From a virus, in the IMG/VR virus record IMGVR_UViG_3300021963_000316, positions 1-37,740 of that record: a stretch of 37,740 nucleotides of DNA. The stretch is one strand, 5' to 3'. The position numbers were made by a program, and so were the translations under genes. Shown here in pieces: positions 4,931-34,584 of the stretch (the first letter of the stretch is position 1; every line of letters begins with the position of its first letter). The notes below the pieces were generated by a model. The model was given only the letters and a program-made list of their open reading frames with translations, ran no database searches and had not been told where the DNA came from.

Positions 4931-4933
4931 AAT

Positions 4934-4964: not shown

Positions 4965-4972
4965 TTTAAAGG

Positions 4973-4980: not shown

Positions 4981-4994
4981 TAAAAGATAAAATT

Positions 4995-14400: not shown

Positions 14401-15992
14401 ACATCTTAGTTAATACGTTAATATCTAAACTAAAAGATTATAGCACAAATTTATTGAATCAATACGATACGATTTTAAATTCTGCCAATCAAAATACGGC
14501 AAAAATGGGTGCTGTGTTAGCTGGTTTATCTGTCATAACTGATGGTTATGAATTAAGAAAAACCGAAGATAACAAAACTGAATATTTTGAGGTAATGCCT
14601 AACGAGTATAAGTTAAGTACTGACGCCAAAACATTGTTTAATTATGATCCATATCATAGCTATATGACTTTATCATTTAACGGTTTTGAGAAAATAACAT
14701 TAAAGGATGTTAAAACTTATATCTCTGATAGAGAAAATGGTGATAGTAATAAATTAAAATTCCTTTCACTAGGTAATGGTGCTTATTTCTTTAAACAAAT
14801 AACCGATGATGCTAACGTTGCAGCTGTTTCGTCTGTAAATTACACATCAACAAACCAATTAATGAGATCTAGAGCGTTGAAAAACGGTATTGACGTAACG
14901 TTAAATGGTTCAGCACCTAATTTTGAATTAACTGGCACTGGCGTTACATTAAATACTGTATATGATAAAAAGGGTAAACCAGGTGAAACAACCGTTAAAG
15001 ATCTAATGCCAACAACTGGTACTACAGAGGCTGTTGATACGTATTCTGAATACTACCCAATGACCTATACATTTGAAAAAATAAATTATGAGTTATTTGA
15101 TTTCACAAATAAAACATTGGATATAATGTTAAATGATAATTTCATTATTAAAGATTTTGATATCGATATTACATTTGATAATGATCTAGATTTTTATTTC
15201 CAAATAAACGATTTATTAGATAAATCAGCTGTTAGTTTATTTTATTATGGTACTGATAGAGCTGCTATGGTAAATACACCAATAACATACTATAAAATAA
15301 ATGAAAAATCCGTTACTGGTACAACAACAGAAGCTGCAATTAAAGCTATAAATAAAAATTGTGAATACACAATAACAATAACAAAAGAATTGGTTGATAC
15401 ATTAAACCCAAGTCTTAGTAGTTTAATTGGTAGTAAAATAAAAATGTCAGGTTTATTGGATATTTTATTCACAGATTTCTTTATGACGTTATCTGATTCA
15501 GATAGAGCTAATATTTTAGTTGAATTGAATAAAATAGAGCCAGTTATTGGTATAAGTAATGACCCAAAAACTAAACAAAAACAAATTGAGGCTAAAAAGA
15601 AGAAAATAGAATCGATTTTGACTTCAATCTTCACATCAATTTACACATTTAGGGATTCAGCTCAGGGTATGATGCAACCTATAATTGACTTATATACAAC
15701 AAATTACGACAATATTAATAAGTCTGTTTGGAAGTCATTAAGTGGCGAGGATGGCACTTTTACTCCAGATTATCAGTTGATACAGAAAACCTTAATAAAG
15801 GGTAATGAGGCTGACTATACTTTGGTATTTAAAGATACTCTTAGCAACAATATCAAAAAAGCGGCCATTAACAACTATAATGTGTTTACAAATAATAGAA
15901 GTGTGTTTAATATTATAACTCAATCTGAATCACAAGAGTCAATTGAAAAAAATACCACAACACAACTAAGTCAATATTTTAAAGGGGAATAA
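8436..15992 (+). CDS. Giant baseplate/tail structural protein (2518 aa)
   Basis: The product is a mosaic. Residues ~18-205 are three tandem ~62-aa repeats, each with a TP.D start, a YL..G centre, a V..PG.V motif and an NKNI.TP-type join. Around 800-885, GRIMWFPPYDIKF and FLGRPEPIYTYNHSERSG lead to a VDHPSIL motif. Around 1425-1490, PPVCVLRIGDFYN, VWDLNPEGIGVQPMIANVQL and SFKYIGGSG look like a tube- or baseplate-cap-type beta domain. A Pro/Glu/Lys linker lies near 1305 and a Ser/Thr-rich linker at ~1755-1830. The C-terminal ~700 residues are not recognised. Its place between the tape measure gene and the gp53-like gene supports a baseplate role, perhaps the tube-baseplate junction (cf. T4 gp48/gp54). 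It starts 13 nt after the tape measure gene and ends one base before the next ATG. Exact function is uncertain. Confidence 0.75.
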   Translation: MGLKIISQQFRDDVLQLNLKTPPDIVLGLVDLSGAALLTAYLDSIGKDAIVKVDKASVTLHDPGNVVTDSIAPRTKDLNKNIKTPTDVQQGLSNLTASQSLTQQYLAGLGDPAIINDYNVTNPGDVMTEGQLPRIQNFNKNINTPPDITNNIASGYLGGKGTEVVIGDYSVTNPGTVDDAANIERPKLLNKNKPINVNDPSENDALYSELSNGSYTYASLLAAIGQATYLSDLNIPNATSISAQSNQPAEVYLNLLLQENRQVPTLLNVYEPEIQSILSKQSLQPYIDAYNSLIFTDGNQPNVYQPSEFLNISTSQSPVAILTNTNLDPMDVLLNGGKQPLKDETLLMNIAALELKFNFESRIRRAIERETFGRTQLDEALHNPSTALSLLKNPRSWFELNYEITVSSNPIGKAAEFIASLAGVQSPISLIPDIREDYTPKCFGNEIDNSSAEKSNFSKFISDLLGRTARQQPDVYYLNHTGAGQKYQLFSNVKRNKYSPNYLADYESGVFQLGEKIAQELRSITGFLGLGAGSRPTGNYYIGNRDKHEDPLYLMQDGDGDIVRSNEKLTESLKQSNAGATLPYEEPGYDEVSSYGNIQTDFIWKDEFARDTVLDKSLGKSEQVNILNKVKNQDNLSFNKYHSNRFRECSILYKTSQLLEKTNEYGTPIDQTLTKFYDGYSFASRANATITPIKKEVKNKQGEITGYRYFVPGLDASGKRSAEAMYYEAELCRVWTKTRPYSKITDLIRYKELLRRERNSVLDRYGNLNIFPSELNVNRGYGKTEGIGAATTEAFGERRARKYMFSIENLAWRDSELFRDLPDCEKGPNGGRIMWFPPYDIKFTDDTTANWTTHQFLGRPEPIYTYNHSERSGSLSWKIIVDHPSILNLLAQKELARLTDGEIDEILTAFWAGCIEFDIFELARIWNQFSQSDIDYFKKVISGLDLRTPNGEIKTKLVQGSVFKQPDDVKGDETNITLPVFNAQGFGLFFENDVPLRKTLNKKKHPLYDQGIVQPFDAYFERYKQLANGSTSDNVEVTKEAHYGVPINPEFVNYKSTLNTTDRYFFDTTKTEKWYGFDRQYQAIANELSDEKFKQFDLAITFTAFASPLNTYAKGYNDDLAFRRYTSAIKWLITKNILSKCGKLYTTKDGSVEITEKNVDELFVGKETQSNFKIYRDKVSNDPKDPNKSEIEFKLVRAKGLTTSEVFSNNGVITTFKELPTKEKYFEFLGAPTGSTTGSTQVVFYCFETEAIANDVKKKKKLPGVPNYRIGSLELDQTVRTYGDIMCSVNSIVASYARRVEVNLEVKPQEPKPKKEEPKPEPVYIQVPGDANLTPNNVTKRDIAQRIINKFITECDYFELIKSDAPILFDSLKQKLKYFTPAFHSMTPEGLNARLTFLQQCMRPGETIKRKDGASCDASNTAFGKPPVCVLRIGDFYNTKIVINNLNINYEPLVWDLNPEGIGVQPMIANVQLSFKYIGGSGLRKYVDELQNALSFNFYANADVYDSRTFANTDLTERNLINLERSYFDNNTLDLIPIVARAEQFVSNSFQNDIPYGTIGIITKRRAPTTAGGAYGSDILTAKTYDGTKIYQPFEIVTKDDKFYLRKADNEANIATGNSFNGTKADIGNSKYWNEIKWRNFGEQAFRLEFGKVRTTGVDANGTPTGQTTGNTQATGTLDNTYFNWYEIQYLDIFKELYGTYGKLVETNFKLNTPYYDVNNANKVPSSLLLQLVLNKNYNKQLTITNTSSITLSGSFGTASTASTASTASTASTSATSGTNGTSSTSLNPNTTYLDGVLDDLGNFITPTAQIGSFSTSSTASSSSTSSTSGTNGTSASGKYYLYDVFDAEAAERNYFEFKNYGALAKAFSKDLENIKIAPLKLHLYPQKHLYKIGDGTTLISASGIFEEGNRFNPGDITGGNYNDQDNAEIAGLYLKDYSYFQLNIDKLIAALTLEMEAKLRLGLNMFWHSGNNDVYKSYIKYFETTHKDILVNTLISKLKDYSTNLLNQYDTILNSANQNTAKMGAVLAGLSVITDGYELRKTEDNKTEYFEVMPNEYKLSTDAKTLFNYDPYHSYMTLSFNGFEKITLKDVKTYISDRENGDSNKLKFLSLGNGAYFFKQITDDANVAAVSSVNYTSTNQLMRSRALKNGIDVTLNGSAPNFELTGTGVTLNTVYDKKGKPGETTVKDLMPTTGTTEAVDTYSEYYPMTYTFEKINYELFDFTNKTLDIMLNDNFIIKDFDIDITFDNDLDFYFQINDLLDKSAVSLFYYGTDRAAMVNTPITYYKINEKSVTGTTTEAAIKAINKNCEYTITITKELVDTLNPSLSSLIGSKIKMSGLLDILFTDFFMTLSDSDRANILVELNKIEPVIGISNDPKTKQKQIEAKKKKIESILTSIFTSIYTFRDSAQGMMQPIIDLYTTNYDNINKSVWKSLSGEDGTFTPDYQLIQKTLIKGNEADYTLVFKDTLSNNIKKAAINNYNVFTNNRSVFNIITQSESQESIEKNTTTQLSQYFKGE
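13706..13753 (+). repeat. 9-bp tandem repeat (TACAGCAAG) encoding Thr-Ala-Ser units
   Basis: Five perfect copies of TACAGCAAG plus a partial sixth lie inside the 2518-aa gene and encode an AST-repeat linker. Because the unit is a multiple of three, slippage would change linker length without breaking the frame. A second Ser/Thr-rich block lies at about 13875-13945, and both blocks include the residues SGTNGTS. Confidence 0.95.
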
Positions 15993-15993
15993 T

Positions 15994-16314
15994 ATGAGTG
16001 GTTATTATAATAGATACAGAAAATTAAATACCGATCAAGGTGTAGTTTCACCGCCATTTATCAAATTGGATGAAAAATCTACCGATGATATGATTCAATT
16101 TGATAAAAGAAAATCAAGACTGGATAAAATAAGTCAAGATTACTACGGTGCCCCATACTATGGTTGGTTAATATTAATGGCTAACCCAGAATACGGTGGG
16201 TTGGAGTGGAATATAGGTGATGGTCAAATGATTAGAATACCTTTACCATTAAATGAAACATTAAAAGAATACGAAAGAAAATTAAACCAAAGAATGAACT
16301 ACTATGGCCAGTAA
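15994..16314 (+). CDS. Baseplate wedge protein, gp53/LysM-like
   Basis: The 106-aa protein has the signature of T4 gp53 and phage tail protein X: SRLDKISQDYYGAPYYGWLI, then LMANPE, an intervening Gly-rich turn, and GDGQMIRIPLP. This is a LysM-like fold in which a D.I...YYG...W.I helix-turn and a final 'IRIP' strand are conserved. In T4, gp53 joins neighbouring wedges to complete the baseplate ring. Its ATG comes one base after the preceding stop, and its 3' end overlaps the next gene by 11 nt (16304-16314), so it is embedded in a coupled operon. Peptidoglycan binding by the LysM-like fold cannot be excluded but is less likely in this position. Confidence 0.75.
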   Translation: MSGYYNRYRKLNTDQGVVSPPFIKLDEKSTDDMIQFDKRKSRLDKISQDYYGAPYYGWLILMANPEYGGLEWNIGDGQMIRIPLPLNETLKEYERKLNQRMNYYGQ

Positions 16315-19300
16315 TTTAGATGAAAAAATTTTATTTCAAAGGGCTAGAAATTCACAAGGTTTACAAATAAAATCTAACCCATACAAAGCGATAGACCAGG
16401 ATTCTGAATCTAATTCTGGCGTTTTGGTTATTGACCCTAATAAGGTTGTTGATAAGTATGGGCAAATAGTTGATAGATATGTTAAACAAGAAGATTTAAC
16501 AATATACGCTTCATTAAAAGTTATTAAAAAAGCCGAAACAGCTGTTATTTCACATGCTGGTGGTGGGGTGGATGCTCAAGGTAATTCAGTACCACCGACT
16601 ATTAGTGCTAGTGAAGTATCTAAAGCTATTTATGTAAATTTTTTAAATCCGTTAAAAAACAAAAAACGAGCTGACGGGACATACGAAAGAAAAAATAAAT
16701 TCACAACAGAGTGGACTGATTTTTTCACTAGTGATTCAGCAAACGATAAGACTAGTCAAAATTACATCCTTGATTCTGAAACGTTTGGTATACATGATAT
16801 TGGTATTGCTGTTAATGCAAATCACCTACCTATAATAAAGATAACATTTACGGATGTACAAGGTAGGATGTTATTTGAACGTGGAAATGACCCCGATAGC
16901 CCATACAACGTATTTTTTACATACCCATATCCAAAATTCTATTTAACATATAAAGGTTATTTCGGTAAAGCTGTTGAAGTACCTATGTACTTACTAAAAT
17001 CAAATACTAGATTCATACCCGAGTCTGGTGATTATGAAGTAACAGCGGAATTCCAAAGCGAAATGTTTGGGTTATTCAACACATTTTTGGTTATCTACGC
17101 CTATGCGGCACCATATATGTTTATGTCAGATGGTGAGTATCTTGGGCGACAGATATTACAAAAACTATACGATGATCAAAATAGTAAAATAGAAGAATTT
17201 TTAACAAAAAGGGGTAAAGCTGACTCGTTTAAGGAATATAAAATAGATAAATGCCCAACACTATACGATCTTAGTAGAGCTGTAAAAATTATACCATCCA
17301 GTGCATTTAATGTTGGTGATAGTGATGTTGGTAAAAAAGACGAGCAGATTATAAAAATAAAATCAGCCATAGAATCCTACCAAAAATCAGTCATATCTTT
17401 TTTTGATAATCCAAGCAATTACACTGTCGATAGAAAAGTTATAACAAACTCAACGGGTAATAATGTAATTGAAAATTTAATATATAAACCAACAAAAGTT
17501 GATTTCTGTTTCACATCAAATAGAAACCCAGTTGAATTTTATAATGCTATAGATAGTTTAAATAAACTAGTTACTGAGTTAACTGAAATAGATACTTATA
17601 TGGTTGGCAAACCAAACATTGGTTATATTTCAGCAATTGATCAGTTAAAAAAATTCATTAAAGAAGATATTTTCATAACAAATGATGAATATAAAAAGCA
17701 AATAGAATCACCAAATGGTTTGCTCATAAATGATACCATGTTTTTTAACACGGGCAACCCTATTTTGGATGTTAAAGAACCCGCTAAAGTTGAATATGTT
17801 ATTCATAATTTTGACAGGGTTATTGTTGAGTTATTAAATCAGGCGTCTTATATGCAAAGCGCCATTGAGAATTTATATATTGATGAGGAAGTTACTGAAT
17901 TAGGTGTTCATTTGGGATATGAACCAAATTTAAATAACGTATTAAGGATTATAGCAAATAACATGCAAACGTTTTTAATCTTGATGGAAATCATGTCTAA
18001 AAACGGATTAAAGCAAATACAAAACGACCCGAAAAGAAGAAAAATTCATGAATCAAAAACTGGCCATATTAGTGATATGGGTGGTAAAGTGAAACAATTT
18101 AGTTCATTCCCAAATTACTATAAAACGGTTAAAAGAACATTGAGTACGGATAATAAAATCGTGGATCAAAAAGTATTGGCTTACCCTGGGATTGATGCGT
18201 CAAACCAAGATTGGTTTGAAGTTTTATTTGTTGAAGAGATATACAAGGCGTTAGAAACAATAAAAGATATCGCTAATCCAAAGGCACTTAACACAATAGA
18301 AAAAAAATTCACATCAATGCTAACAATATTTGGCTTAGGTGAATTGGATTTGGATGCGTATAGAAATAAAAAAACAGCAACAGCTATACTAAGTGAGGCT
18401 ATATCAAAGTACTTGTTATATACAAATTATTCTGGTATAATGTATCGTGGTGTTGACACCACAACAATGGATCAAATCGGTTTGAGTATTGCTCAATTTG
18501 AGATTGACACGATGAATAAGACGATATTCAGCCCATCATCAACAGATGATAATAGTCGAATAAGGTTAGACGCTTTTGATTTTGTTAAAAACAAAGATAC
18601 ATTTGTTGACCCAGCGGCAACGGGGATAAAAAATTCAAAATCTAGTAACGTTTCAGTTAAATACACTAATTTGGGTAATTTAGCAATAAATGGAATAAAT
18701 GCACAATTTAACGGATCAAAAGATAGCCCATCAACAATAACACCTGGTGACGGTGATTCATATGGTACAATTAGCATATACTCAAAACTAAAAGAATTTG
18801 TAAATAACGAATCGGAATTATATGGTAAAAAGTACACTAAAAGTGAATTAGAAACAATTATTAATAACAGAAAAACTTACATTAAAAACTCAATTCAGAA
18901 TGAGCTTTTATATCAAAATATAGCATTTACAAAAGTTGGTAATCCGTTAAAATATTCTGTGATAAACCCAGATGGTAGATCTGATGAACTTACTATGCTT
19001 AATGTATATCCAGATATTAGATCGAGCACCGCATATTATTCTGATATTGCAAAGAGTGGTAATTTTGATGTTATTAATTCATCATTAACGGCTATATCTG
19101 AATCAAATTATGATAATAACCCATTCCAAGGTTTATTTAAAAATTTAAATGAAAAACTAAAAACAGATGCGTTATTAAATTCTGATGTTACAAGAAATGT
19201 CGCTATGGGTAAATCAACCGTACCAGCTTTAACGCACAATACAAAAAACGATGAGATAGCAACTGACGGTATAGCTACACCATTTGGTAAAGTAACCAAA

Positions 19301-19339
19301 CCGTCAACTAATTACAAAAGATTATTTAACGAATTATAA
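16304..19339 (+). CDS. Large tail/baseplate structural protein (1011 aa)
   Basis: I do not recognise a named family. The best-formed region is at about residues 163-256: HDIGIAVNANHLPIIKITFTD, then a ..VFFTYPYPKFYLTYKGYFG.. segment, a VEVPMYLLKS strand and a final DYEVTAEFQSEMFGLFN stretch. That pattern of alternating beta strands resembles beta-barrel domains of phage baseplate or hub proteins. The rest is charged and mixed helical, without catalytic motifs, signal peptide or membrane segments. It overlaps the gp53-like gene by 11 nt and ends exactly one base before the next ATG (TAA then ATG at 19340), so translation is likely coupled. A baseplate role follows from context; which subunit it represents cannot be told from the sequence. 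Confidence 0.6.
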   Translation: MASNLDEKILFQRARNSQGLQIKSNPYKAIDQDSESNSGVLVIDPNKVVDKYGQIVDRYVKQEDLTIYASLKVIKKAETAVISHAGGGVDAQGNSVPPTISASEVSKAIYVNFLNPLKNKKRADGTYERKNKFTTEWTDFFTSDSANDKTSQNYILDSETFGIHDIGIAVNANHLPIIKITFTDVQGRMLFERGNDPDSPYNVFFTYPYPKFYLTYKGYFGKAVEVPMYLLKSNTRFIPESGDYEVTAEFQSEMFGLFNTFLVIYAYAAPYMFMSDGEYLGRQILQKLYDDQNSKIEEFLTKRGKADSFKEYKIDKCPTLYDLSRAVKIIPSSAFNVGDSDVGKKDEQIIKIKSAIESYQKSVISFFDNPSNYTVDRKVITNSTGNNVIENLIYKPTKVDFCFTSNRNPVEFYNAIDSLNKLVTELTEIDTYMVGKPNIGYISAIDQLKKFIKEDIFITNDEYKKQIESPNGLLINDTMFFNTGNPILDVKEPAKVEYVIHNFDRVIVELLNQASYMQSAIENLYIDEEVTELGVHLGYEPNLNNVLRIIANNMQTFLILMEIMSKNGLKQIQNDPKRRKIHESKTGHISDMGGKVKQFSSFPNYYKTVKRTLSTDNKIVDQKVLAYPGIDASNQDWFEVLFVEEIYKALETIKDIANPKALNTIEKKFTSMLTIFGLGELDLDAYRNKKTATAILSEAISKYLLYTNYSGIMYRGVDTTTMDQIGLSIAQFEIDTMNKTIFSPSSTDDNSRIRLDAFDFVKNKDTFVDPAATGIKNSKSSNVSVKYTNLGNLAINGINAQFNGSKDSPSTITPGDGDSYGTISIYSKLKEFVNNESELYGKKYTKSELETIINNRKTYIKNSIQNELLYQNIAFTKVGNPLKYSVINPDGRSDELTMLNVYPDIRSSTAYYSDIAKSGNFDVINSSLTAISESNYDNNPFQGLFKNLNEKLKTDALLNSDVTRNVAMGKSTVPALTHNTKNDEIATDGIATPFGKVTKPSTNYKRLFNEL

Positions 19340-22300: not shown

Positions 22301-22708
22301 TTACTCGAAAAGACAACGGATGATGATAAAAATAAAATGGGTGTTTATTTTGCAAGAAAAATATTATTTGGGGATCAATACATTGACCCATTTACGGCAT
22401 TATCAAAAGACGAATTAACAACTTTAGGTAATTTAAATTACAAATATTTACTTAATAAACTATATACATATAAGAAATTCGATGGTGATTTAAATGAGTT
22501 ATATAAAAAGATAGTTATAAACTTTTTTGAATTATTAAATGTTAAATTTACAACAGAAAGATATAAACAATTACATAGATTGATTAGAACATATGTTTAC
22601 AGAATATTAAAAAATAACGATATATTGAATGAAAAATCACTTTCAAATAATGAAAGATACCTTTATCAAGTTTTTCCTCAATTTAAAACAGATTTTAATA
22701 TAGGATAA
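19340..22708 (+). CDS. Large tail/baseplate protein of unknown family (1122 aa)
   Basis: The protein has no motif that I recognise. It is rich in Asn, Lys, Tyr and Phe with many short beta-like stretches, for example LPYPVVLYLGGLHYFL near residue 130 and a DEYNGRYTYRNYQDYCL segment near 515. A Gly-rich patch (GGAPYFSIGGGKGYGEG) lies near 665-680. No signal peptide, membrane helix or enzyme signature is apparent. It lies between the 1011-aa structural protein and the hub, with its stop overlapping the hub ATG by one base (TAATG at 22706-22710). Unbroken coupling from 8436 to 27294 argues that it is made with, and assembled into, the same tail-tip complex. Receptor-binding or wedge function is possible but not shown. 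Confidence 0.6.
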   Translation: MATAVETALNEYLSTTSSLETDRILGYYGVGDENKILISGDQTALGNFYTLKGSEKYSCDVKNILNTHALPYSFTLSATKNNNTTFPEVAMMFIKTYIKQLLPYGHIKPNDLYKVFNRNQELVELPYPVVLYLGGLHYFLQNVPNTSKILENGDLFNVTNGIPQKYELGKTKITSSEDLYELNILSRMGLTYATDESTGIGNSGTTTQVYERLYAPSMKVLNRSLYDLNSGDDTYFSGYFNIKTSADGEQTSTEIPFKTIMPAVGFGIQNRFLNHYNKIMFGDYLNGTKDLLEDGQPHSVIGAFCGISKPIKTYKSYDMEFTAFYRNLHVGAFSYKVDDLVTELDNVTKGVKTTYVGIHPFGSTSTTQDIKPDFYIDEKVYVAAQDNTYVHNPMRAELEKKDDPLDSFLSDDFPMSKIIQAFVTYSKLKAIYLNKTIGNKAELTEALRKLCSVKNIESVFNKDKKAKGQHEISDFYFLVSHVFFASYKKVVQNHETPNGGNYYSLNARLNFGMGDEYNGRYTYRNYQDYCLTGTLDKILNKKITSKDDEVSALSEFLSYVWGLERINLKPEFNKVGGGTDMKAVYALYPSSGGGITPLSLIRSTEGSLDIRFNNYVDNDFKLGTNANNSALHTLLYKNPNSNQTRDYMKVDKISGTLGDDMVGGAPYFSIGGGKGYGEGPKSRITNFIDEDALNKFDKLLSKNNVSKYNKNFKFSDNPLSHKYYVEPSYDTNTFLSRGFDNIEVLKNTTRFFWFDPTMYGIDLKPQYKVDNNLNATIPDLSLENGVDKMISSFGEKDYFSLNMVSVFTSGDYEKLKEQYFFEQYTLTNLMDSLDFEKLDKFKDLFIDFSKLNGKSSAIYNEANHTLRSLMLSSSCITYDDFEDVSFAGKTWSKDEINLMLIGNSLFQYEFLSESGISNILNYSLSKAQYKITNNVIDEFCSSLVTVANFSPSTPIATDKNGVSSLHRVIGVPEILFSNRPSYDEILTLLEKTTDDDKNKMGVYFARKILFGDQYIDPFTALSKDELTTLGNLNYKYLLNKLYTYKKFDGDLNELYKKIVINFFELLNVKFTTERYKQLHRLIRTYVYRILKNNDILNEKSLSNNERYLYQVFPQFKTDFNIG

Positions 22709-25700
22709 TGGCTAAAGTATTATCAGATATCACCCTTAATGACAAAGCGTTTTTTAATGACTTTGCTAAAGTAACCATAGACAATAGTTTACATGGTATT
22801 AATTCGTTTTTAAATGCGCTATCCATAGAATTTTCAAATAAAATTAGTGGTGAGGGGGCGATTATGGAGCAAGCCAATAAAGTTGAATCTTATAACGATA
22901 TTAAGAAAACAACATATTACAATATCAAAACATTACACGAAATGATGAGTGGTATTGTAACAAATGATAGTGGTGCTAATTTAGATAACTATATTTCAAA
23001 CCCGAATTCGATTAATAAGATAAGAATAGACTCGGTTGATGAAATGAAATTGTTTAGTACCAGCACACCAGATTGCGACACACCTGGTTCATCAAATAGT
23101 TTCTACGATATCTATAACATATTCCAAGTTGTTGATAGAGGTAATAATGATATTGGTACAAAAGTTTTGGCGAATTTAGCCACACTTTATAAAAACTTAT
23201 ATGCGGATTTCACCAAAGAATCTATAACACCATCTGACCCAAATAATCAGAATACACAAGTAGATGTTTTAACTAAAAGTAGTATTAATAATTTATTTAG
23301 TTCGTTGGCTAGTGAAAGTGGATTCTTGTATCAACAAATACCAAATTACTTAAATGTTAATGGTTCATTACCCAATAAGCATAATGATGAGACGCTATTT
23401 GAAATTGTTGATCATATGTTTGGTACACACACAGATACAAGTTTGTTTGGTGACACATTTAATGCTGAAAGAGATGTTAAATTTGGAGGCCCAACTGGAT
23501 TACCTGGTTGTATTTTCCAATTAGGTACATTATCATCTTCACCAGATGAAGATAAAAATCAAAAAAATAATTACACAAATTCATTTTGTTTAGATCTAAA
23601 TTTAGATTCAAATAGTGAGGTTTCTGTTAATTCTGAAGATGCGCCAGATGATATATTAAAATCCAACGTAACAGCTTTTGTCGTTGATTTCGGTAAGCAA
23701 AATCAACAGATGTTTAAAAGCATTCAATTGGACACAGCTCAATTTTATGACACAGAAGAAAGTATAAAGACTTGGGTTAATTTGGTTAATGATACTGGTA
23801 CTGGACTACAAACAACAAATTTATTTCCAATATTAGAAAAGAGATCATATACTTGTAATGTGGTTTCATTGGGTAACGCAACAATACAACCATTAAGTTA
23901 CTTCTATCTAAGAAATGTACCACTTTTTCACGGAACGTATTGGATTACAAACGTAACGCACAAGTTATCACCTAATACAATGATAACTGAATTTAAAGGT
24001 GTTAGACAACCAATAGCAACTAAAGCTGATACGAGAAAAGCGTTATTAAGGCTCATAAAAGAAAAAATTAAAGACATTGAAAATGCTAACAAAGAAGCTA
24101 GCAAAGTTCAAACAGAAGGCTTACCAGACACACAAGGTACTATTAAATTCTTATCTGGATCAAATAAACCATATAAGGATTTTATACAGCAAGTTAAAGA
24201 TGGTACTGGTTATGCTCAAATAGATGGTAAAGATATTTTAGGCGCCTATATTTACTCAATCACAAGGGATAATAAGATGACAGCCGCAAACTATGGTATG
24301 ATATCTTATTTGTATAACATAGCTTCAATATATAAAGATAGTATTGATCCATCTGAAATATTACCAGCTATGGTTCAAGTTGCGATTGCAAATATGAAAT
24401 TTGTTGCTGAGAATGGTGATACTAGATTTACAGATTCAAATACATTATCATTGTCTTATTTGTTAAAAAACACTGGAGCTAATTTTTTACAAAACGATGA
24501 AATGGGTCAGTATTTGGATAATTTAACTGAATTAAGTTATTTACAAAAAAACCATAAATTACCAGCAAATACTAAAGCCTGGGATATACAAGCTAGCGGA
24601 TCTGGTGGCTCTTTTGATAAAAGTGGTGTTGATACAACACTTAAATCTACAAATACTATTACTGGATTTTCACCAGACGGTATTGATATAAGTGGCGCCA
24701 ATTTATTTTTAGACCCACAGGAAAAAAATAAATCAAATGATGTATATAGGGCAACAAATAACGTACAAACTCTTTATGACATATTCCACGCATATGACCC
24801 AACTAATTTTATTATTAATAAGATTAACACTGAAGTCACAATTGAGCAGGTACCAGACGATAAAGTTACAGCGTTAGCGGCTAAAAAACCAAGAAAGTAT
24901 GAGGATGTAAATAAGGAAGCGCCATTCATGGATTGGTTCAAATTCTTCTATAACGATAATTTTGGTGGTGATGTTGACGATACAACAATGAATCAATTAG
25001 TTAAATTCGCATTAGTTGACTCTGACGGTACTTTTAATGATGATAAATTAGCAACTTATTTATTTGGTGTCGGTAATGATTCAAATTCAGAGAGATTTAT
25101 AAAGATAAGAAATAAAGTTAAAGAGGCTAAAAAGGGTAATAATTACCAAGTCGCAATCTTTAGTGGTATAAAAATGTACAAAACGGTACAAGATATTGAA
25201 TGGGAAGGTGCTGCTGGTGATGATGTTGGTCTTAGTTTTAACGGTTCAAAGCATTGGTATGATTTTGACGCAACTACCGATGCTGGTAGTAAAGAAAACT
25301 TTAAAAAATTTGTTGATAAAGATGTTAAGAGTTTTTACGATACAGTTAACGAAGAATATGAAAAAGAAAACAAAGAAGTTACTAAATCAACCGCAGAACC
25401 AGTAAAGGTAAAATATTTGGGTGCCTATGGTTATGGTACTGGTGACACAACTGACAATGTTGCTTTCTTTAAATTCTTAAACAAAATAACACTTAGCTCT
25501 CAAGCAAAAAAATATATTGATTTAGAAATATCAACGTCAGCGGATGTTTTAGTGTCACAATCTGGTGAAAATGGTGCTGGGGAAAAAAGAGTTACATTAT
25601 TGGGTAATATGAAACGTGTGGCTGAGGCTGAACAAGCTAAATGGCGTGATAGTAGTGGTACATTAAGGAAAGAATGTGAAGAATCGGTAAAAACCTATTT

Positions 25701-27294
25701 AAACTCTTATTGGGAAGCTGTTGGCACAACACTTGAAAAAAAGGGTGGTTGTGGTGTTGCTTGGTCAGCAGCGTTTATATCATATGTTGTTAAAAATTCT
25801 GGCGCATCCGAATTCCCATATTCAGCTATGCATGCGACATATATTGTAAAATCTAGAGATAACAAAAATTCTGGTGGAACATACCCATGGTATGGTTATG
25901 ATGCTTTAACAAAAGACGCAAAAGTTGACGTTGGGGATATTGTTTGCTATTCAAACGGTGCTGGCATTAATACTAAATGGGAGGATTTTAAAAGCGATAC
26001 ACACTGTCATTGTGATGTTGTGGTTAGTATTGATGAACAAAAAAAGGCCAGAACCATAGGTGGTAACGTAAGCCAGACTGTCGGTGGTGATTCGTTACAA
26101 TTAAATGATGATTATACCATTGATATTGACCAAAGTACTGGTGGGGGTGTAAAGATATATCGTGGAGTATTAAAATATCAACCAGCCGAAGATAGCACAA
26201 CAACAGCATCTAACGATACTAAGTCAACTAAAATCAGTAATGAGGAGATGGCTCATAATCAGGTTAAAATTAAAAACATTTTAAAAAATTCAGGCTTAAC
26301 TAAAGCTCAAGCTGCTGGTGTTATGGGTAATATCCAAAAAGAAAGCGGCTTCAACCCAACGGTTAAACCATTTGCTGATTTAAATGGTTATTACTCTGTT
26401 GGTTTAATACAATGGAACGCTAGATACACACCAGATGGTGGAACTAAAGATGTTAATGTTGTTTATAAGACAATTGGAACAACTGTTGAGGAGCAGATGG
26501 ATTATTTATTAAACAAATATTCATCTTATAAAAAATATGTCAAGGAAACTGGATCCGAATCAAGCGCTTGGATGGCCGCTTATTATTTTGCTAAAACAGT
26601 TGAAGTTTGCGCTGGTTGTATTGGTGGGGTAGAGGAATATAAAACAAATAAATACCACCCATACCAAAGAAGTGAATACGCTAATGATTTCTTTAATAGG
26701 TTTAATACACAGGGCGATTCATTATATTGGGGTGATGGTGGTAATATTGCAGCATCGTCAAACCAATCAACAGCATCTAAAATAGTGGCAATTGGTGATT
26801 CATTAGCAACTGGTATAATCGCTGGATATAGTAATATTAAACGTATTAGTAGCCCACAAGAATTAGATCAGGTTGGTAAACATTTAAGCCTTGATGGTGG
26901 CGCAAATAATGGCGGTAAATCAATAATAAATCTATTAAAAGCAACAAACACAACATTCCCAGATGTGAAAACATTGATTTTATCAATCGGAGCTAATGAT
27001 TTGTGGAACTTAAGTAGCGGTTCATCAAAAGAAAAAGAATGTATTGACTTAATTAAAAAAGTATTCCCTAAAGCAAGTTATTATATTTGTAATGGTAATT
27101 ATGGTTGGGGTAATTTATCCGTAACAACAACAAATACAGCAAGTTATTGGCAAAATAAAATAAATAACTACATTAATGTATATAAAAACGCTGGATTTAC
27201 CGTTATTGGTAATGTTTCGTTATGCACAGTTCATCCAGCAAAAGGTGACGCACTGTATAACTCAATGGACTCAAAATTAAAAAGTTTTGCTTAA
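22708..27294 (+). CDS. Multidomain tail hub with DUF2272-like, lysozyme and SGNH esterase domains
   Basis: Domains of this 1528-aa protein, in order: a hub-like region at ~375-435 (ILEKRSYTCNVVSLGNATIQ, then YFYLRNVPLFHGTYWITNVT and a FKGVRQP end), as in gp27-type hubs. A DUF2272/CHAP-like domain at ~980-1155 has GVAWSAAFISYVV, FPYSAMHATYI and a D-V-GDIV strand. A Phage_lysozyme2-like domain at ~1177-1331 has AAGVMGNIQKESGFNP, probable catalytic E1212 and SVGLIQWN. An SGNH/GDSL hydrolase at ~1355-1528 has GDSLATG (S1365), GANDLW (N1430) and VHP (H1509). The hub tip reaches the periplasm after sheath contraction, where these domains could cut peptidoglycan bonds and remove acyl groups. The usual SGNH Asp three residues before the His is Cys here. 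The start overlaps the upstream stop (TAATG). Family calls rest on motifs read by eye. Confidence 0.82.
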   Translation: MAKVLSDITLNDKAFFNDFAKVTIDNSLHGINSFLNALSIEFSNKISGEGAIMEQANKVESYNDIKKTTYYNIKTLHEMMSGIVTNDSGANLDNYISNPNSINKIRIDSVDEMKLFSTSTPDCDTPGSSNSFYDIYNIFQVVDRGNNDIGTKVLANLATLYKNLYADFTKESITPSDPNNQNTQVDVLTKSSINNLFSSLASESGFLYQQIPNYLNVNGSLPNKHNDETLFEIVDHMFGTHTDTSLFGDTFNAERDVKFGGPTGLPGCIFQLGTLSSSPDEDKNQKNNYTNSFCLDLNLDSNSEVSVNSEDAPDDILKSNVTAFVVDFGKQNQQMFKSIQLDTAQFYDTEESIKTWVNLVNDTGTGLQTTNLFPILEKRSYTCNVVSLGNATIQPLSYFYLRNVPLFHGTYWITNVTHKLSPNTMITEFKGVRQPIATKADTRKALLRLIKEKIKDIENANKEASKVQTEGLPDTQGTIKFLSGSNKPYKDFIQQVKDGTGYAQIDGKDILGAYIYSITRDNKMTAANYGMISYLYNIASIYKDSIDPSEILPAMVQVAIANMKFVAENGDTRFTDSNTLSLSYLLKNTGANFLQNDEMGQYLDNLTELSYLQKNHKLPANTKAWDIQASGSGGSFDKSGVDTTLKSTNTITGFSPDGIDISGANLFLDPQEKNKSNDVYRATNNVQTLYDIFHAYDPTNFIINKINTEVTIEQVPDDKVTALAAKKPRKYEDVNKEAPFMDWFKFFYNDNFGGDVDDTTMNQLVKFALVDSDGTFNDDKLATYLFGVGNDSNSERFIKIRNKVKEAKKGNNYQVAIFSGIKMYKTVQDIEWEGAAGDDVGLSFNGSKHWYDFDATTDAGSKENFKKFVDKDVKSFYDTVNEEYEKENKEVTKSTAEPVKVKYLGAYGYGTGDTTDNVAFFKFLNKITLSSQAKKYIDLEISTSADVLVSQSGENGAGEKRVTLLGNMKRVAEAEQAKWRDSSGTLRKECEESVKTYLNSYWEAVGTTLEKKGGCGVAWSAAFISYVVKNSGASEFPYSAMHATYIVKSRDNKNSGGTYPWYGYDALTKDAKVDVGDIVCYSNGAGINTKWEDFKSDTHCHCDVVVSIDEQKKARTIGGNVSQTVGGDSLQLNDDYTIDIDQSTGGGVKIYRGVLKYQPAEDSTTTASNDTKSTKISNEEMAHNQVKIKNILKNSGLTKAQAAGVMGNIQKESGFNPTVKPFADLNGYYSVGLIQWNARYTPDGGTKDVNVVYKTIGTTVEEQMDYLLNKYSSYKKYVKETGSESSAWMAAYYFAKTVEVCAGCIGGVEEYKTNKYHPYQRSEYANDFFNRFNTQGDSLYWGDGGNIAASSNQSTASKIVAIGDSLATGIIAGYSNIKRISSPQELDQVGKHLSLDGGANNGGKSIINLLKATNTTFPDVKTLILSIGANDLWNLSSGSSKEKECIDLIKKVFPKASYYICNGNYGWGNLSVTTTNTASYWQNKINNYINVYKNAGFTVIGNVSLCTVHPAKGDALYNSMDSKLKSFA

Positions 27295-27312
27295 CTTTAT
27301 TAAAAACCTAGA

Positions 27313-27320
27313 TATTTATA
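27313..27320 (+). promoter_or_regulatory. TATTTATA element, candidate late promoter
   Basis: An exact TATTTATA in the context AGATATTTATAAGAAAA, 13 nt before the ATG at 27334. The context matches the element before the tail tube gene. Confidence 0.5.
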
Positions 27321-27333
27321 AGAAAACTATTTT

Positions 27334-27552
27334 ATGGATAATTTAAACAAAAAAATAGACGAATTTTTAAATGAGGAACCTAAGGTTGGTGAAGAGGTAT
27401 GTGATTTAAAAACAGGTATTTGCTATGTTAAAACAGCTGATGGTCTAATCGAAAGAAAATTAATTGAAAAAAAATTAGTACTTGAAGACGGTAGAGAACT
27501 GTTAAGAGAGGAATCGCCAATAAGCAATTCAAATAGAACATTTTTGAGATGA
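27334..27552 (+). CDS. Small hypothetical protein (72 aa)
   Basis: This is a short acidic/basic mixed protein with two Cys residues spaced C-D-L-K-T-G-I-C, followed by a probable beta hairpin (YVKTADGLIERKLIEKKLVLEDG). The two Cys alone do not make a zinc finger. Its stop overlaps the next start as ATGA (27549-27552), so it is translationally coupled to the acidic coiled-coil protein that follows. It leads a three-gene unit after the hub gene and has a TATTTATA element upstream, suggesting late expression and a virion or assembly role. Function unknown. Confidence 0.7.
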   Translation: MDNLNKKIDEFLNEEPKVGEEVCDLKTGICYVKTADGLIERKLIEKKLVLEDGRELLREESPISNSNRTFLR

Positions 27553-28274
27553 GTAAATTAAATAAAATATTAGAAAACGAAATTAAACGTTTCAATACGA
27601 TTATAGCTTACCAAGATAAGATGTCTTTATCTGAGGGTGCTTATAGATTTTATAATGAGGCTGAGGAAGAAGTTCCAGCTCAGGATGCACCAGTTGATGA
27701 TGCACCACCAGCTGATGCCGCTATTGACGGTACGGAGTCTCCAGCGACAGATGGAACTGAAGTTACTGATGGTACTGAGGATTTAAACGCTCAAGATATG
27801 GGTACAGAAGCCCCAGCAACAGATGGAACTGAGGATGTAGCTACCGATGAAGACGTTACCGAAATCGATGTAACAGATTTGGTTAATGATACAAATGAGA
27901 TCAAAGGTAAGATAAGTTCAATTGAGGGTAATCTATCTAAAATGGATAGTATTATGAGTAAAGTTGACAATTTAACCAATAATGTGAGTAAAATGGACGA
28001 ACTTATTGGCAAAATGGAAATGTTGGCAAAACAAGTTGAATTAATGAGACCTCCAACAGAAGCTGAAAGAAGAAAAGCGTTATCTAAAGATTCATACCCA
28101 TTTAATGTAAGTATCGATCAGTATAATAACGGTGAAGGTGTTAAAACACAAACAGACTTAGAAAATCAACCAAACAAAATGTCAATGTTAGACAATTTAA
28201 TGGCTGATTATAATGATGGTGCGGTTAGAGATAGCTTTTATGCACCACAACCAAATCAATTAATGAATAGATAA
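27549..28274 (+). CDS. Acidic linker / coiled-coil protein of unknown function (241 aa)
   Basis: The protein has three parts. The N-terminus is a basic amphipathic helix (KLNKILENEIKRFNTIIAYQ). Residues ~38-105 are very acidic with repeated TDGTE units; on the DNA, a 20-nt direct repeat at 27741-27760 and 27813-27832 differs at one base. Residues ~108-165 look like a heptad coiled coil (ISSIEGNLSKMDSIMSKVDN), followed by an Asn/Pro/Gln-rich tail. It overlaps the preceding gene by 4 nt and ends one base before the next. No enzymatic motif is visible. A scaffold, head-core or tail accessory role fits the composition, but the sequence does not decide. Confidence 0.7.
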   Translation: MSKLNKILENEIKRFNTIIAYQDKMSLSEGAYRFYNEAEEEVPAQDAPVDDAPPADAAIDGTESPATDGTEVTDGTEDLNAQDMGTEAPATDGTEDVATDEDVTEIDVTDLVNDTNEIKGKISSIEGNLSKMDSIMSKVDNLTNNVSKMDELIGKMEMLAKQVELMRPPTEAERRKALSKDSYPFNVSIDQYNNGEGVKTQTDLENQPNKMSMLDNLMADYNDGAVRDSFYAPQPNQLMNR

Positions 28275-28275
28275 A

Positions 28276-28581
28276 ATGATTAGCGCAGGTAAACAACAAG
28301 AATTAGTAACAACCAAATTGGCAACCATTGGTGATAGTATTGAGTCTATTGATACGACTGAATATACCATATCTTATTACGGGTTTTTAACATTAGGTAA
28401 CACAAACGATACTATAACAATAACATTAAATGGTGTACCAGGTATCGAATTATCGATGATTGGTATGTTTGAATGCCCAATCCAAAAAATCACATTGACT
28501 GCCGTTACAGATAGTGGAATGGGTTCAGTTACAAAGGGTTTGCTGGCGTTTGGTGTTAAGCGTTACAAAAGTATTTTTTAA
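28276..28581 (+). CDS. Small beta-rich hypothetical protein (101 aa)
   Basis: The protein is dominated by alternating Thr/Ile/Gly strands (YTISYYGFLTLGNTNDTITI, ECPIQKITLTAVTDSGMGSV), suggesting a compact beta-sandwich. There is one Cys and no membrane segment. It follows the acidic protein with one base between stop and ATG, closing the three-gene unit. A minor virion protein is plausible; the family is not recognised. A T-rich stretch follows its stop, without a clear stem, and then the promoter of the ssDNA-binding protein gene. Confidence 0.65.
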   Translation: MISAGKQQELVTTKLATIGDSIESIDTTEYTISYYGFLTLGNTNDTITITLNGVPGIELSMIGMFECPIQKITLTAVTDSGMGSVTKGLLAFGVKRYKSIF

Positions 28582-28598
28582 TTTTTTTTACTCGGCAC

Positions 28599-28629
28599 TT
28601 GACTTTTTAGAAAACCTTTCGTAATATTG
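28599..28629 (+). promoter_or_regulatory. Sigma70-like promoter of the ssDNA-binding protein gene
   Basis: TTGACT (28599-28604) is followed after exactly 17 nt by TAATAT, within TAATATTG (28622-28629), one mismatch from the Bacteroidota -7 consensus TAnnTTTG. A start near 28635 would leave a leader of about 20 nt before the ATG at 28655. It probably drives the replication genes early or mid infection. Confidence 0.65.
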
Positions 28630-28654
28630 TACCATAAACTTAAAAATAAATTTT

Positions 28655-29578
28655 ATGGATTACAAAAACATCGATTGGAATCAAGCCGTTCAAAACACAC
28701 TGGCAGATTACGAAAAAGCAAAGACCGTTAGACAAGGTTCGGAGCGAAAAGAAGTGGATCTTAGTAAGTATTTCACTTTAGCTTTGCCCGAAAAAGTCAA
28801 TTCTGGTGAAAGAGTATTTAGGGTTTTACCGTTAGACCAAAATGGGAAATGGTATGAGATTGGAAAATTCCACAATCTTAAAGTTGGTAAAAATTGGAGT
28901 AAATTGTACGACCCATCACAAGATGGTGAAGAGTCACCTCTAAACGACATGTACAAGATTTACATGAACACTGGCGATGATGAAGACAGAAAAATCGCAA
29001 TGCCTTACAAATCACGTGAATTTTACATTGTAAAAGGTATCGAACGTGGTAAAGAGCATGAGGGTGTTAAATTCTGGAGATTTCCTAAAGTAAAAGATGG
29101 TTCTGGTATCATGGATAAATTAGTTCCATTGATGAACCGATTAAATGACAAAAACCCTGGTTCTGGTGCTTTTTACCGTCCAGATGATTTAGGTCGTGAT
29201 ATCGTTATTAGCGTTGTACGTGATACGGTTAAAAATTACACAAAAGTTTCTCAAATTATGCTTGAAGACCCAACTCCATTGAGTGCGGATGCTGAACAAG
29301 CTACCGAATGGTTGTCAAACGAAATGACATGGAGAGACGTTTGGAAGAAAAAACCAGTTGAGTTCTTGCGTATTGTTGCACAAGGTGGCGAACCTATTTG
29401 GGATAGCGAATCTAAGCAATTTGTAGCTAAAGTTGATGATATGGGCGCTGGCGCTTATAGCACACCAACACCACCAGCACAAAGTGGTTATTCAGCCCCA
29501 GAGCCAACAAATTCTGATGACACTCAAGAAAGTGGTTCTGAGCCCGTTACACTTAACGTTGACGATTTACCGTTCTAA
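28655..29578 (+). CDS. Single-stranded DNA-binding protein (gp32-like)
   Basis: The 307-aa protein matches gp32 in length and architecture. It has a basic N-terminal segment (QAVQNTLADYEKAKTVRQGS), a central OB-type region with many aromatic and basic residues (RVFRVLPLDQNGKWYEIGKF, KSREFYIVKGIERGKEHEG), then DLGRDIVISVVRDTVKNYTK. An acidic, Pro/Ser-rich C-terminal tail ends in DDLPF. It coats single-stranded DNA during replication and recombination, and its tail usually recruits partner proteins. No cysteines are present, so the structural zinc site of T4 gp32 is absent. The DDLPF tip resembles the DDDIPF tip of bacterial SSB. It has its own sigma70-like promoter and lies immediately upstream of uvsX, with a hairpin between them that may limit read-through. 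Confidence 0.85.
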   Translation: MDYKNIDWNQAVQNTLADYEKAKTVRQGSERKEVDLSKYFTLALPEKVNSGERVFRVLPLDQNGKWYEIGKFHNLKVGKNWSKLYDPSQDGEESPLNDMYKIYMNTGDDEDRKIAMPYKSREFYIVKGIERGKEHEGVKFWRFPKVKDGSGIMDKLVPLMNRLNDKNPGSGAFYRPDDLGRDIVISVVRDTVKNYTKVSQIMLEDPTPLSADAEQATEWLSNEMTWRDVWKKKPVEFLRIVAQGGEPIWDSESKQFVAKVDDMGAGAYSTPTPPAQSGYSAPEPTNSDDTQESGSEPVTLNVDDLPF

Positions 29579-29590
29579 AAATAACATATT

Positions 29591-29648
29591 GAGCATGGAC
29601 AGATACTTGGGCATATTGTCTTAGTTGGTGTCCATGCTCTTATTTTTT
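29591..29648 (+). terminator. Long-loop hairpin / terminator between ssb and uvsX
   Basis: A perfect 11-bp stem (GAGCATGGACA at 29591-29601 with TGTCCATGCTC at 29629-29639) encloses a 27-nt loop and is followed by TTATTTTTTAA. The T tail suggests termination or attenuation. The unusually large loop could hold a second structure. Confidence 0.7.
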
Positions 29649-29674
29649 AATTAAAAACAAACATATTATATACA

Positions 29675-30688
29675 ATGGCAGTTAAGAAAAAAGAATTTTC
29701 TTTTGATGATTTCAAGAAGAAAATGAGCACAACAACAAAATACAAACCCGATTTATTCTTAAATTGTGGTGAGGCGTTTTTAGAGGCATCTGGTGTTCCA
29801 GGCCCTTGCATGGGTCACATAAATATGTTGCTAGGTCATACAAACACTGGTAAAACTAGCGCATTAATTTCATCAGCGGTTGACGCCCAAAGACGTGGTA
29901 TTTTACCAGTGTTTTTGGTTACCGAGAAAAAATGGAGTTTTGAGCATTGTCAATTAATGGGAATGGACATCTATAAAGATGACGAGGGTGAATGGCAAGG
30001 GTTTTTCTTGTATCGTGACGATTTCAACTATATTGAACAAGTTACAGATTACATCAACGAAATCATGGACAAACAAGACAAAGGTGAATTACCGTATGAT
30101 GTTTGTTTCTTCTGGGATTCGGTTGGCTCTGTACCATGTAAAATGACTTGGGAAGGTAAAGGTGGTAAACAACATACCGCAGGTGTATTGGCTGAAAAAA
30201 TCAATATGGGTATCAACCAAAGAATTAATAATACTCGTAAAGAAACATCACCATACTTGGCTGGTTTGGTTGTTTGTAACTTACCTTGGGTTAAATTACC
30301 AGATTCACCAATGGGTCAACCAAAAATGAAACCAAAGGGTGGTGAGGCTATCTACCAAGCAGCCACATTGGTATTCCGTTTTGGTAACGAAGCTGATGGT
30401 GGTATTTCTAAAATTGATGCAACTAAGAATGGTCGTAAGATCAATTTCGCAACAAGAACTAAAGTCACTGTTGATAAAAATCACATTAACGGACTTGGTT
30501 TTGCTGACTCACAAATCATTGTAACACCACATGGTTTCATTACAAGTGACAGAAGAGATGATAAAGCAGCTCTAGAAAAATATAAAAAAGAAACAGCCGA
30601 ATATTGGGCTGAAAAGATAGGTGATAAAACATTTGAACTTGAAGAATATGAAGTTAAACAGAAAATCGCCTACTCGGACGAGGATTAA
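29675..30688 (+). CDS. uvsX: UvsX-like recombinase (RecA/Rad51 family)
   Basis: The 337-aa protein has a RecA core. Walker A is GHTNTGKT (residues 54-61). The adenine/glutamate region follows (VFLVTEKKWSFE), and Walker B is VCFFWDS with D148. A later basic/aromatic segment (IYQAATLVFRFG, INFATRTKVTVDKNHING) covers the DNA-binding loop region. The C-terminus is acidic. UvsX forms filaments on ssDNA and carries out strand exchange for recombination-dependent replication. It follows the ssDNA-binding protein gene, its functional partner. Its end overlaps the next gene, a 5' nuclease, by 41 nt or more depending on that gene's start. The ATG at 29675 lies in an A/T-rich leader without a Shine-Dalgarno sequence. 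Confidence 0.92.
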   Translation: MAVKKKEFSFDDFKKKMSTTTKYKPDLFLNCGEAFLEASGVPGPCMGHINMLLGHTNTGKTSALISSAVDAQRRGILPVFLVTEKKWSFEHCQLMGMDIYKDDEGEWQGFFLYRDDFNYIEQVTDYINEIMDKQDKGELPYDVCFFWDSVGSVPCKMTWEGKGGKQHTAGVLAEKINMGINQRINNTRKETSPYLAGLVVCNLPWVKLPDSPMGQPKMKPKGGEAIYQAATLVFRFGNEADGGISKIDATKNGRKINFATRTKVTVDKNHINGLGFADSQIIVTPHGFITSDRRDDKAALEKYKKETAEYWAEKIGDKTFELEEYEVKQKIAYSDED

Positions 30689-31688
30689 CTGCCTGTTGAT
30701 TGATGGGGAAGCCTTATTAAAACAAGGGTTTCATGGCGCCAAACAAGTACAAACCAAAAACGGTAGTGTTGGCGCCATCTTCCACTTCATTAATACAATC
30801 AAAAGATTCTACCAAGATTTTGGTATAACAAAAGTGGTTGTGTTTTGGGAAGGTGAGAATTCAAAACAATACAGACAGGGTTATTATCCATACTACAAAC
30901 AAAATAGAAACGATAAAGTGTCTATCGATGAAAGACACGATTTAGATCGACAAAGATTACGAATTAAACAGTATTTAGAAGAGATTTTCATTAGACAGGT
31001 TGAAATTGATGGTTGTGAGGCCGATGATGGTATTGCACATTATGTTAGAAATTCACCAAATGAAAATAAAATGATTTATACCAATGATCGTGATTTACTA
31101 CAATTAATCTCCGATGATACCAAAGTATACCTCTATGGTAAAAAAGCGGTTATTAATATCGATAATTTTAAAAATTATTTCGATTACCATTATGGTAACG
31201 TTGGTTTAATTAAAATTATTGCTGGTGATTCATCTGATAATATATCGGGTTTAGAGGGTATTGGTGAAGAAACTGTTTTAAAGTTATTCCCAGAACTAAA
31301 AAAAGAAAAAAAAGACTACGATTGGGTTATTGGTAGAGTTGATGAGTTGTTGAATGAAACACCAAGTAGTAAAAAATTACAGGTTATAAAAGAAGGTAAA
31401 ACAAAATGGGGTACGTATGGCACTGATTATTTTGGGGTTATGAACAAAATAATTAATTTAGAACAACCAAACGTAACCGATGAGTTAAGATCGGCCATTA
31501 TTGAAATGGTTAATGAACCGCTACACCCAGATGGTCGTGGTGGTATTAACAAAATAATGGAAATGATGAAAGAAGATGAATTATTAAATTTTTTGCCAAA
31601 ATATGATGACGGGTTCTTTGTTTTTTGGTCTTCTTTTATTACTATTGTAAACAAAGAAAAAAAATTCTACGAACAAACAAAAAAGTAA
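30648..31688 (+). CDS. 5'-3' exonuclease / RNase H-like flap nuclease (FEN family)
   Basis: Numbered from the ATG at 30648 (346 aa), the FEN-family acidic residues are present: LLIDGE (D19), CEADDGIA (E124, D126, D127), YTNDRDLLQL (D147, D149) and AGDSSDN (D194, D197). A helix-hairpin-helix GLEGIGEETVL then binds DNA. The YRQGYYPYYKQNR motif of the helical arch is clear, but the usual FDG before it reads FWEG. In T4 this enzyme (RNase H, rnh) removes RNA primers and flaps during lagging-strand synthesis. A longer GTG start at 30621 is possible, but ATG 30648 gives a more normal N-terminus; either way it overlaps uvsX. A spurious start at TTG 30696 would cut into the first catalytic strand. 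Confidence 0.88.
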   Translation: MKLNRKSPTRTRINCLLIDGEALLKQGFHGAKQVQTKNGSVGAIFHFINTIKRFYQDFGITKVVVFWEGENSKQYRQGYYPYYKQNRNDKVSIDERHDLDRQRLRIKQYLEEIFIRQVEIDGCEADDGIAHYVRNSPNENKMIYTNDRDLLQLISDDTKVYLYGKKAVINIDNFKNYFDYHYGNVGLIKIIAGDSSDNISGLEGIGEETVLKLFPELKKEKKDYDWVIGRVDELLNETPSSKKLQVIKEGKTKWGTYGTDYFGVMNKIINLEQPNVTDELRSAIIEMVNEPLHPDGRGGINKIMEMMKEDELLNFLPKYDDGFFVFWSSFITIVNKEKKFYEQTKK

Positions 31689-33626: not shown

Positions 33627-34573
33627 ATGAATTTAAAGAGTAACGACCTTACAAAAAGGTATTCAATTTTCCCCATATCACATCCAGATTTATGGGAGTT
33701 TTACAAAAAAGCTGAAAAGCAAACTTGGGTTGCGGAGGAAGTTGATTTATCGAAAGACAAATACAACGAATTGAATGACTCCGAAAAACAGTATCTAAAA
33801 AATATTTTAGCGTTTTTTGCTATATCGGATGGGTTAGTTATTGATAATTTAGCAACCAACTTTATGGCTGAGGTTGATTTATTAGAGGCTCAATATTTCT
33901 ACGGACACCAAACATTTATTGAACAAGTACATGCTAATGGTTATTCATTATTGATTGAGTCTTATGTAAAAGACGAAAAAGAGAAAATGGATTTATTTAA
34001 CTCGATGGAAACAAGCCCATCGGTTGCAGCAAAAGCATCTTGGGCTGAAAAATGGATCGATCACCCATCTTTTGTTCACAGATTAATTGCATTTGCTTGC
34101 GTTGAGGGTATTTCGTTTAGTTCTGTCTTTGCTGGTGTATTTTGGTATAGATCTAGAAATAAAATGGAGGGCTTGGCATCGATGAACGAATTAATTATTC
34201 GTGACGAGACCCTACATTATGAATTTGCTGTAAATTTGTATAACAACTATGTTGTTGATCAATTACCAAAAGAAACTGTTAGAGAGATTATCTTATCATG
34301 TTGCCAAGTCGAGGAAGTATTTGTTAAAGATAGCATGCCAAATGGTTTAATCGGTTTAACAACTGACATGATGGTTCAATATGTTAGATATGTTCAGATG
34401 TTGTTTTAAAAGATTTTGGTATTGAACCAGAATTTAATGTTAATAATCCGTTGGATTATATGGCTAGAATTGGGTTATCAGCTAAAAATAACTTTTTTGA
34501 ACAACGAATCGGGCAATATACAAGGGTTGACATACCAACTACAACTGATGGTATGTTTGATGATGACTTTTAA
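33627..34573 (+). CDS. nrdB: Ribonucleotide reductase class Ia small subunit (NrdB), frame broken near 34397-34409
   Basis: The first 260 codons have all radical-site residues of class Ia NrdB: D68 (ISDG), then E99, H102 and tyrosyl-radical Y106 in EQVHANGY, E160 in ACVEGISFS, and E194/H197 in DETLH. The frame stops at TAA 34407-34409 after YVRYVQMLF. The -1 frame continues the family's C-terminus (DVVLKDFGIEPEFNVNNPLD, then NNFFEQRIGQYTR, ending MFDDDF, stop 34571-34573). Together they give a normal ~318-aa subunit. The C-terminal tail is what binds NrdA, so a true stop should disable the enzyme. No X-XXY-YYZ slippery heptamer is visible. A missing base in the assembly or a real mutation is more likely than programmed shifting. 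It precedes nrdA, the reverse of the common nrdA-nrdB order. Confidence 0.85.
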
Positions 34574-34584
34574 AAATATATAAA

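Follow-up and report, generated by a model that had tools for sequence, protein, structure and literature searches.

A Proposed Phage Baseplate Hub Encoded by Two, Probably Three, Consecutive Open Reading Frames Ends in Three Envelope-Enzyme Folds, Two of Which Form an Exchangeable Cassette

The IMG/VR record IMGVR_UViG_3300021963_000316 (37.7 kb; its 37,740 nt are here called the window) carries a T4-like contractile tail module together with replication genes. We regard it as fairly likely that the window encodes the baseplate hub of a T4-like contractile phage in two, probably three, consecutive ORFs, and that enzymes on the hub tip open murein for the tail tube. The last of these ORFs encodes a chain (hub1528) in which a tube domain with a gp27-like fold is followed by DUF2272, Phage_lysozyme2, and SGNH folds, and the last two are exchanged as one unit in a near-identical sibling phage. 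The features are listed in Table 1.

Table 1. Positions and supporting evidence for the hub ORFs, their domains, and the adjoining gene in the window
Feature	Position	Strand	Basis
Baseplate wedge-like protein	15994..16314	+	PHROG 7145 baseplate wedge, E 4e-7
First hub part, 1011 aa	16304..19339	+	HUB profile positions 20-888, E 4e-67; hhalign prob 100
Middle ORF, 1122 aa	19340..22708	+	Occupies the place of the hub's middle part
Third hub ORF, 1528 aa (hub1528)	22708..27294	+	ORF; residues 3-472 vs HUB profile 1478-1874, E 3e-59
Second tube domain of gp27-like hub, residues 134-437	23107..24018	+	AlphaFold2 model, VIA; best modeled residues 321-437
Region of residues 470-990	24115..25677	+	Beyond the relatives' profile, whose match ends at residue 472
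DUF2272 (papain-like clan), S1020/H1101/N1120	25705..26085	+	Pfam
Exchangeable cassette, lysozyme2 + SGNH	26204..27286	+	blastn vs sibling L002
Phage_lysozyme2, predicted catalytic Glu1212	26257..26703	+	Pfam; PDB alignment
SGNH/GDSL hydrolase fold; S1365, N1430, H1509; Cys1506	26773..27291	+	AlphaFold2, fold searches, motifs

For the division of the hub, we used a profile built from 24 relatives (HUB, 2124 positions). The first ORF is homologous to residues ~20 to 890 of the relatives' single-chain hub, including the N-terminal tube domain region, and the last ORF matches further downstream. The ORF between them was unmatched by hmmsearch with the HUB profile, and hhalign gave a weak, collinear match of its residues 716 to 851 to profile positions 1186 to 1307 (E 0.0025), which none of 100 shuffles equaled; it is possibly the diverged middle part of the hub. 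Among the matches listed, the hub is one ORF of 1775 to 2381 aa in 17 of the 19 complete viral relatives. The initial annotation had read the 1528-aa chain as the hub, with a gp27-like hub region. The hub fold is indeed present in it, but judging from sequence homology this chain holds the second half only, the first half being the ORF at 16304-19339, and a single-chain hub is therefore wrong for this phage as assembled. At the first junction the stop and start codons adjoin in the same frame (TAA|ATG), and at the second they overlap (TAATG); both junctions resemble those of coupled genes. Because neither junction is covered by any sibling contig, the split is known from one assembly. Searches with exact peptide patterns returned no relatives of the first ORF, of the hub N terminus, or of the middle ORF. 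At another locus (L071, positions 3085-5535, reverse strand), the hub ORF covers the C-terminal part only (profile 1287-2087) and an upstream ORF weakly matches the ORF at 16304, so this is perhaps a second split hub.

The surroundings of the hub are conserved. The tail module includes genes for sheath, tube, a gp26-like hub chaperone, and gp25, and the genes flanking the hub are the same in relatives (synteny s106-hub-o241); the wedge-like ORF lies directly upstream of the hub, a neighbor that the relatives also keep. Also upstream is a 2518-aa baseplate ORF (8436-15992), two segments of which are 36 to 61% identical to a gene upstream of the relatives' hub. Elsewhere in the window, a 132-aa ORF on the opposite strand (3459-3857) between the tube and hub-chaperone genes looks by eye like a Vsr/DUF559-type endonuclease and is perhaps a mobile insertion. 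The ribonucleotide reductase beta ORF (33627-34584) encodes 260 aa, versus 289 aa in the homolog of phage immuto, and a gap precedes the alpha subunit, a possible frameshift or insertion.

The hub assignment of hub1528 draws on relatives and on fold. A DNA motif search (GNAxIQP..YF.L) of viral contigs yielded at least 80 loci, and every one of those listed encodes a relative of hub1528 (E<=1e-17, down to 1e-35), the matching part being residues ~130 to 470. When residues 1 to 470 were modeled by AlphaFold2 from a 73-sequence alignment, residues 323 to 440 were modeled well (pLDDT mostly 65 to 94) and the rest mostly with low confidence; a helix at residues 442 to 469 follows the second tube domain. 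The best structural matches that VIA found, which involve residues 321 to 437, are hubs, namely, those of R2 pyocin (Z 10.7) and the Algoriphagus CIS (Z 9.9, rmsd 1.5 over 72) and T4 gp27 (Z 9.2; gp27 residues 188 to 376), and Mu gp44 was also matched. In most of the matched hubs, the well-modeled part aligns to about residues 190 to 350, that is, to the second half. Foldseek likewise ranked hubs on top, with weak values (best E 8e-3) because most of the model is of low confidence. Hmmsearch with the 73-sequence profile gave no hub match in the PDB sequences, so that it is the fold only which links this region to gp27. A hub profile made from immuto, Mel-JY01, and LR756508 showed no significant match to hub1528. 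Of the two tube domains that characterize gp27-like hubs, the second is thus recognized by its fold, and the first would be provided, by homology, by the ORF at 16304-19339. The ~520 aa that lead from the tube domain to DUF2272 (residues 470 to 990) have no match in Pfam or in relatives.

Two of the three enzyme domains are well above their Pfam cutoffs. DUF2272 (PF10030) spans residues 1000 to 1126 (E 4.3e-21; 76 bits versus a cutoff of 27), and its W-S-A, H-x-D, and GGN motifs are kept in all eight aligned sequences, our own and seven relatives. S1020, H1101, and N1120 form a predicted Ser-His-Asn site that is equally conserved, which argues for function. The Cys-His pair of CHAP/NlpC cysteine peptidases is absent, since Ser1020 occupies the Cys position (W-S-A-A). 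Hence, the label "CHAP-like" holds for the papain-like clan and fails for the nucleophile, and we rejected the reading as a CHAP cysteine enzyme. A published survey of the papain-like group describes the family as having Ser conserved at the Cys position and as possibly still catalytic, which is unproven (PMC10318531). Phage_lysozyme2 (PF18013) spans residues 1184 to 1332 (E 2.9e-16; 60 bits versus a cutoff of 28). In a phmmer search of the PDB, this region aligns with the phi29 gp13 lysozyme (3csr), and the ES of GNIQKES, which contains Glu1212, falls on the ES of GNMQSES in gp13.

For the C-terminal domain, Pfam by itself would not establish an SGNH hydrolase: the region alone gave Lipase_GDSL_2 at E 0.013 (16.5 bits, below the cutoff of 32.9) and DUF459 at E 0.045. 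However, the motifs occur in the expected order, GDS at 1363 to 1365 (S1365), GAND at 1428 to 1431 (N1430), and VHP at 1508 to 1510 (H1509), so that the block I Ser, block III Asn, and block V His are all present. The AlphaFold2 model of residues 1341 to 1528, which was built from an alignment of two near-identical sequences, is of low confidence (pLDDT 52, pTM 0.57) and points to the alpha/beta/alpha, flavodoxin-like fold of SGNH hydrolases. The first 17 Foldseek ranks for this model are all SGNH/GDSL enzymes, 16 of them at E<=1e-3 (best 2e-4), and the VIA ranking is headed by SGNH esterases (4h08, Z 9.8), with the CE2 enzyme 2wao at Z 8.9 and the peptidoglycan O-acetylesterase 4k3u at Z 8.8. 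Because rows within 1 Z are tied and 4k3u is one of many SGNH esterases, no substrate follows from the fold. At the DxxH position, Cys1506, three residues before His1509, replaces the Asp. Absence of this residue is frequent among CE2 enzymes, which function with a dyad of Ser and His (PMC9487903); Cys1506 suggests such a dyad here. No close relatives of the domain were found in phage sequences or in genome contigs, and degenerate SGNH patterns gave no matches. Altogether, three envelope-enzyme folds on the tail hub, as originally proposed, are borne out, and the interval assigned to them (25650-27294, residues ~981 to 1528) fits. The profile searches suggested at that time confirm two of the three domains and leave the third below cutoff; structure prediction supplies its SGNH fold with Ser, Asn, and His, in a model of modest pLDDT and without the DxxH Asp.

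Comparison with siblings shows that the Phage_lysozyme2 and SGNH domains are one exchangeable unit. Sibling L001 has the same three domains and 98.6% DNA identity over positions 25029 to 30251. Sibling L002 is identical by blastn to 92.8% over 24092 to 26204 and to 99.0% over 27286 to 31441; it keeps DUF2272 and lacks the stretch in between, which is replaced by a transglycosylase-like domain of ~180 aa (L002:2106-2663; PHROG endolysin, E 3e-6; tail injection transglycosylase, 2e-4). The cassette is bounded by the Thr-rich linker that follows DUF2272 and by the stop codon. Joint exchange fits a joint function of the two domains, without proving it. The idea that the SGNH domain assists the lysozyme is indirectly supported by this exchange and by the fold that known peptidoglycan O-acetylesterases have in common with it. 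Among the matches listed, the corresponding position in relatives is taken by other murein enzymes (M23 in five and GH25 in four), and DUF2272 occurs in the window and L002 only, among 78 scanned. Beyond the tube domain, the hub continues for 1073 aa in the window, versus a median of 258 aa in relatives. These observations and the swap in L002 mark the hub end as a site of enzyme exchange that is unusually long here. A common profile of the relatives' C-terminal domains did not match the alternative domain of L002 significantly, and we therefore do not assign them to the same family. In another sibling contig (L003, 4253-4343), the end repeats window positions 31552 to 31642 in inverted orientation, which is probably an assembly artifact.

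The sequences and models show the domains, their folds and residues, the split, and the cassette exchange. We infer the following location in the virion, enzyme activities, substrates, and order of action. The last ORF would close the tail tube through its second gp27-type tube domain, from which a helix and a linker would lead to the enzymes, arranged as DUF2272 (papain fold, Ser nucleophile), the Phage_lysozyme2 muramidase, and the SGNH esterase. When the tail contracts, the tip would pierce the outer membrane, and its enzymes would make a local opening in the murein for the tube. The most likely role of the SGNH domain is to strip acyl groups (O-acetyl, either of muramic acid or of a surface glycan) that would block the neighboring muramidase; that of DUF2272 is to cut or bind the peptide side. 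O-deacetylation ahead of muramidase action is plausible.

Given the noncanonical active sites (the Asp of DxxH is missing, and Ser stands in for Cys), the SGNH or the DUF2272 domain could instead be a binding module. The SGNH domain, and perhaps DUF2272, would then bind carbohydrate, with weak or no catalysis, and place the lysozyme on murein or surface glycan. Both substitutions, Cys1506 for the block V Asp and Ser1020 for the nucleophilic Cys, speak for this, as does the unproven activity of the DUF2272 family (PMC10318531); yet the SGNH domain keeps its Ser, Asn, and His, CE2 esterases with a Ser-His dyad and no Asp are on record (PMC9487903), and the 8/8 conservation of the DUF2272 residues argues for function. 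We consider a mere binding role rather unlikely. Alternatively, the SGNH domain may act at adsorption on host surface glycan (O-acetyl groups of capsule or O-antigen), independently of the lysozyme. Other phage tail SGNH domains, such as that of G7C gp63.1, act on surface polysaccharides and provide a precedent; this one, however, is located at the C terminus of a hub and not of a fiber or tailspike, and it is exchanged together with the lysozyme. We regard a separate function at the cell surface as improbable.

It is also conceivable that mutation or errors of assembly have broken a single gene into the three ORFs, as the single chain of most complete relatives (17/19) and the single in-frame TAA of the first junction would suggest. 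Against breakage, ordinary start signals lie directly at both stops, three long clean ORFs follow in succession, and the gene transfer agent (GTA) has a two-protein hub (PMC10038345). We hold it to be quite improbable and retain a hub of two, probably three, ORFs with murein-opening tip enzymes. A more far-reaching proposal, which we make tentatively and ourselves find doubtful, is that the hub is split over three coassembling polypeptides and that its enzymatic end is a plug-in site, where, after an invariant Ser-type DUF2272, near-identical phages swap SGNH plus lysozyme (deacetylate and cut) for a different murein enzyme, perhaps tracking murein modification in the host. If true, the sibling pair would be a natural experiment with one phage background and two sets of tail-tip murein enzymes, the matching of tail-borne enzymes to host wall chemistry (e.g., O-acetylation) would become testable, and DUF2272, whose members have a papain fold with Ser at the Cys position and unproven activity, would gain a tractable example.

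Published precedents cover each element: an SGNH domain on a hub, three wall-degrading domains, and a two-protein hub. The gp27-like Tal proteins of Staphylococcus phages, 80alpha gp59 and phi11 gp44, end in an SGNH hydrolase domain like the hub described here (PMC7048315, PMC4876445), and that of phi11 Gp44 was likened to CE2 2WAO (PMC4876445). They differ in being one chain with one enzyme domain, in belonging to siphophages of Gram-positive hosts, and in having an Asp at DxxH (DGLHP) where Cys1506 is found here. In Bacillus phage 0305phi8-36, the gp27-like hub gp147 is oversized, its termini are exchangeable, and it has three domains that degrade murein (PMC2147016), but these are transglycosylase, NlpC, and M23 domains in a single chain, in contrast to DUF2272, Phage_lysozyme2, and SGNH. 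Given these hubs, the combination highlighted by the initial annotation is less exceptional than was implied. In Flavobacterium phage immuto, whose T4-like tail module is syntenic, the protein at the hub position (gp033) has a murein enzyme at its C terminus, but this is one VanY carboxypeptidase, in a single chain of 938 aa. At the tail tip of phi29, gp13 (morphogenesis protein 1) carries a lysozyme domain that belongs to the same family; unlike our hub, gp13 is a small two-domain tail-tip protein with no hub fold. GTA Hub and Megatron form a baseplate hub of two proteins and together align with T5 pb3; this system is siphophage-like and is not reported to carry such an enzyme chain (PMC10038345). 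Within the limited open-access literature searched, beyond which earlier reports may exist, the enzyme combination, the cassette exchange between near-identical phages, and a hub that is divided in a contractile phage and undivided in its relatives are new.
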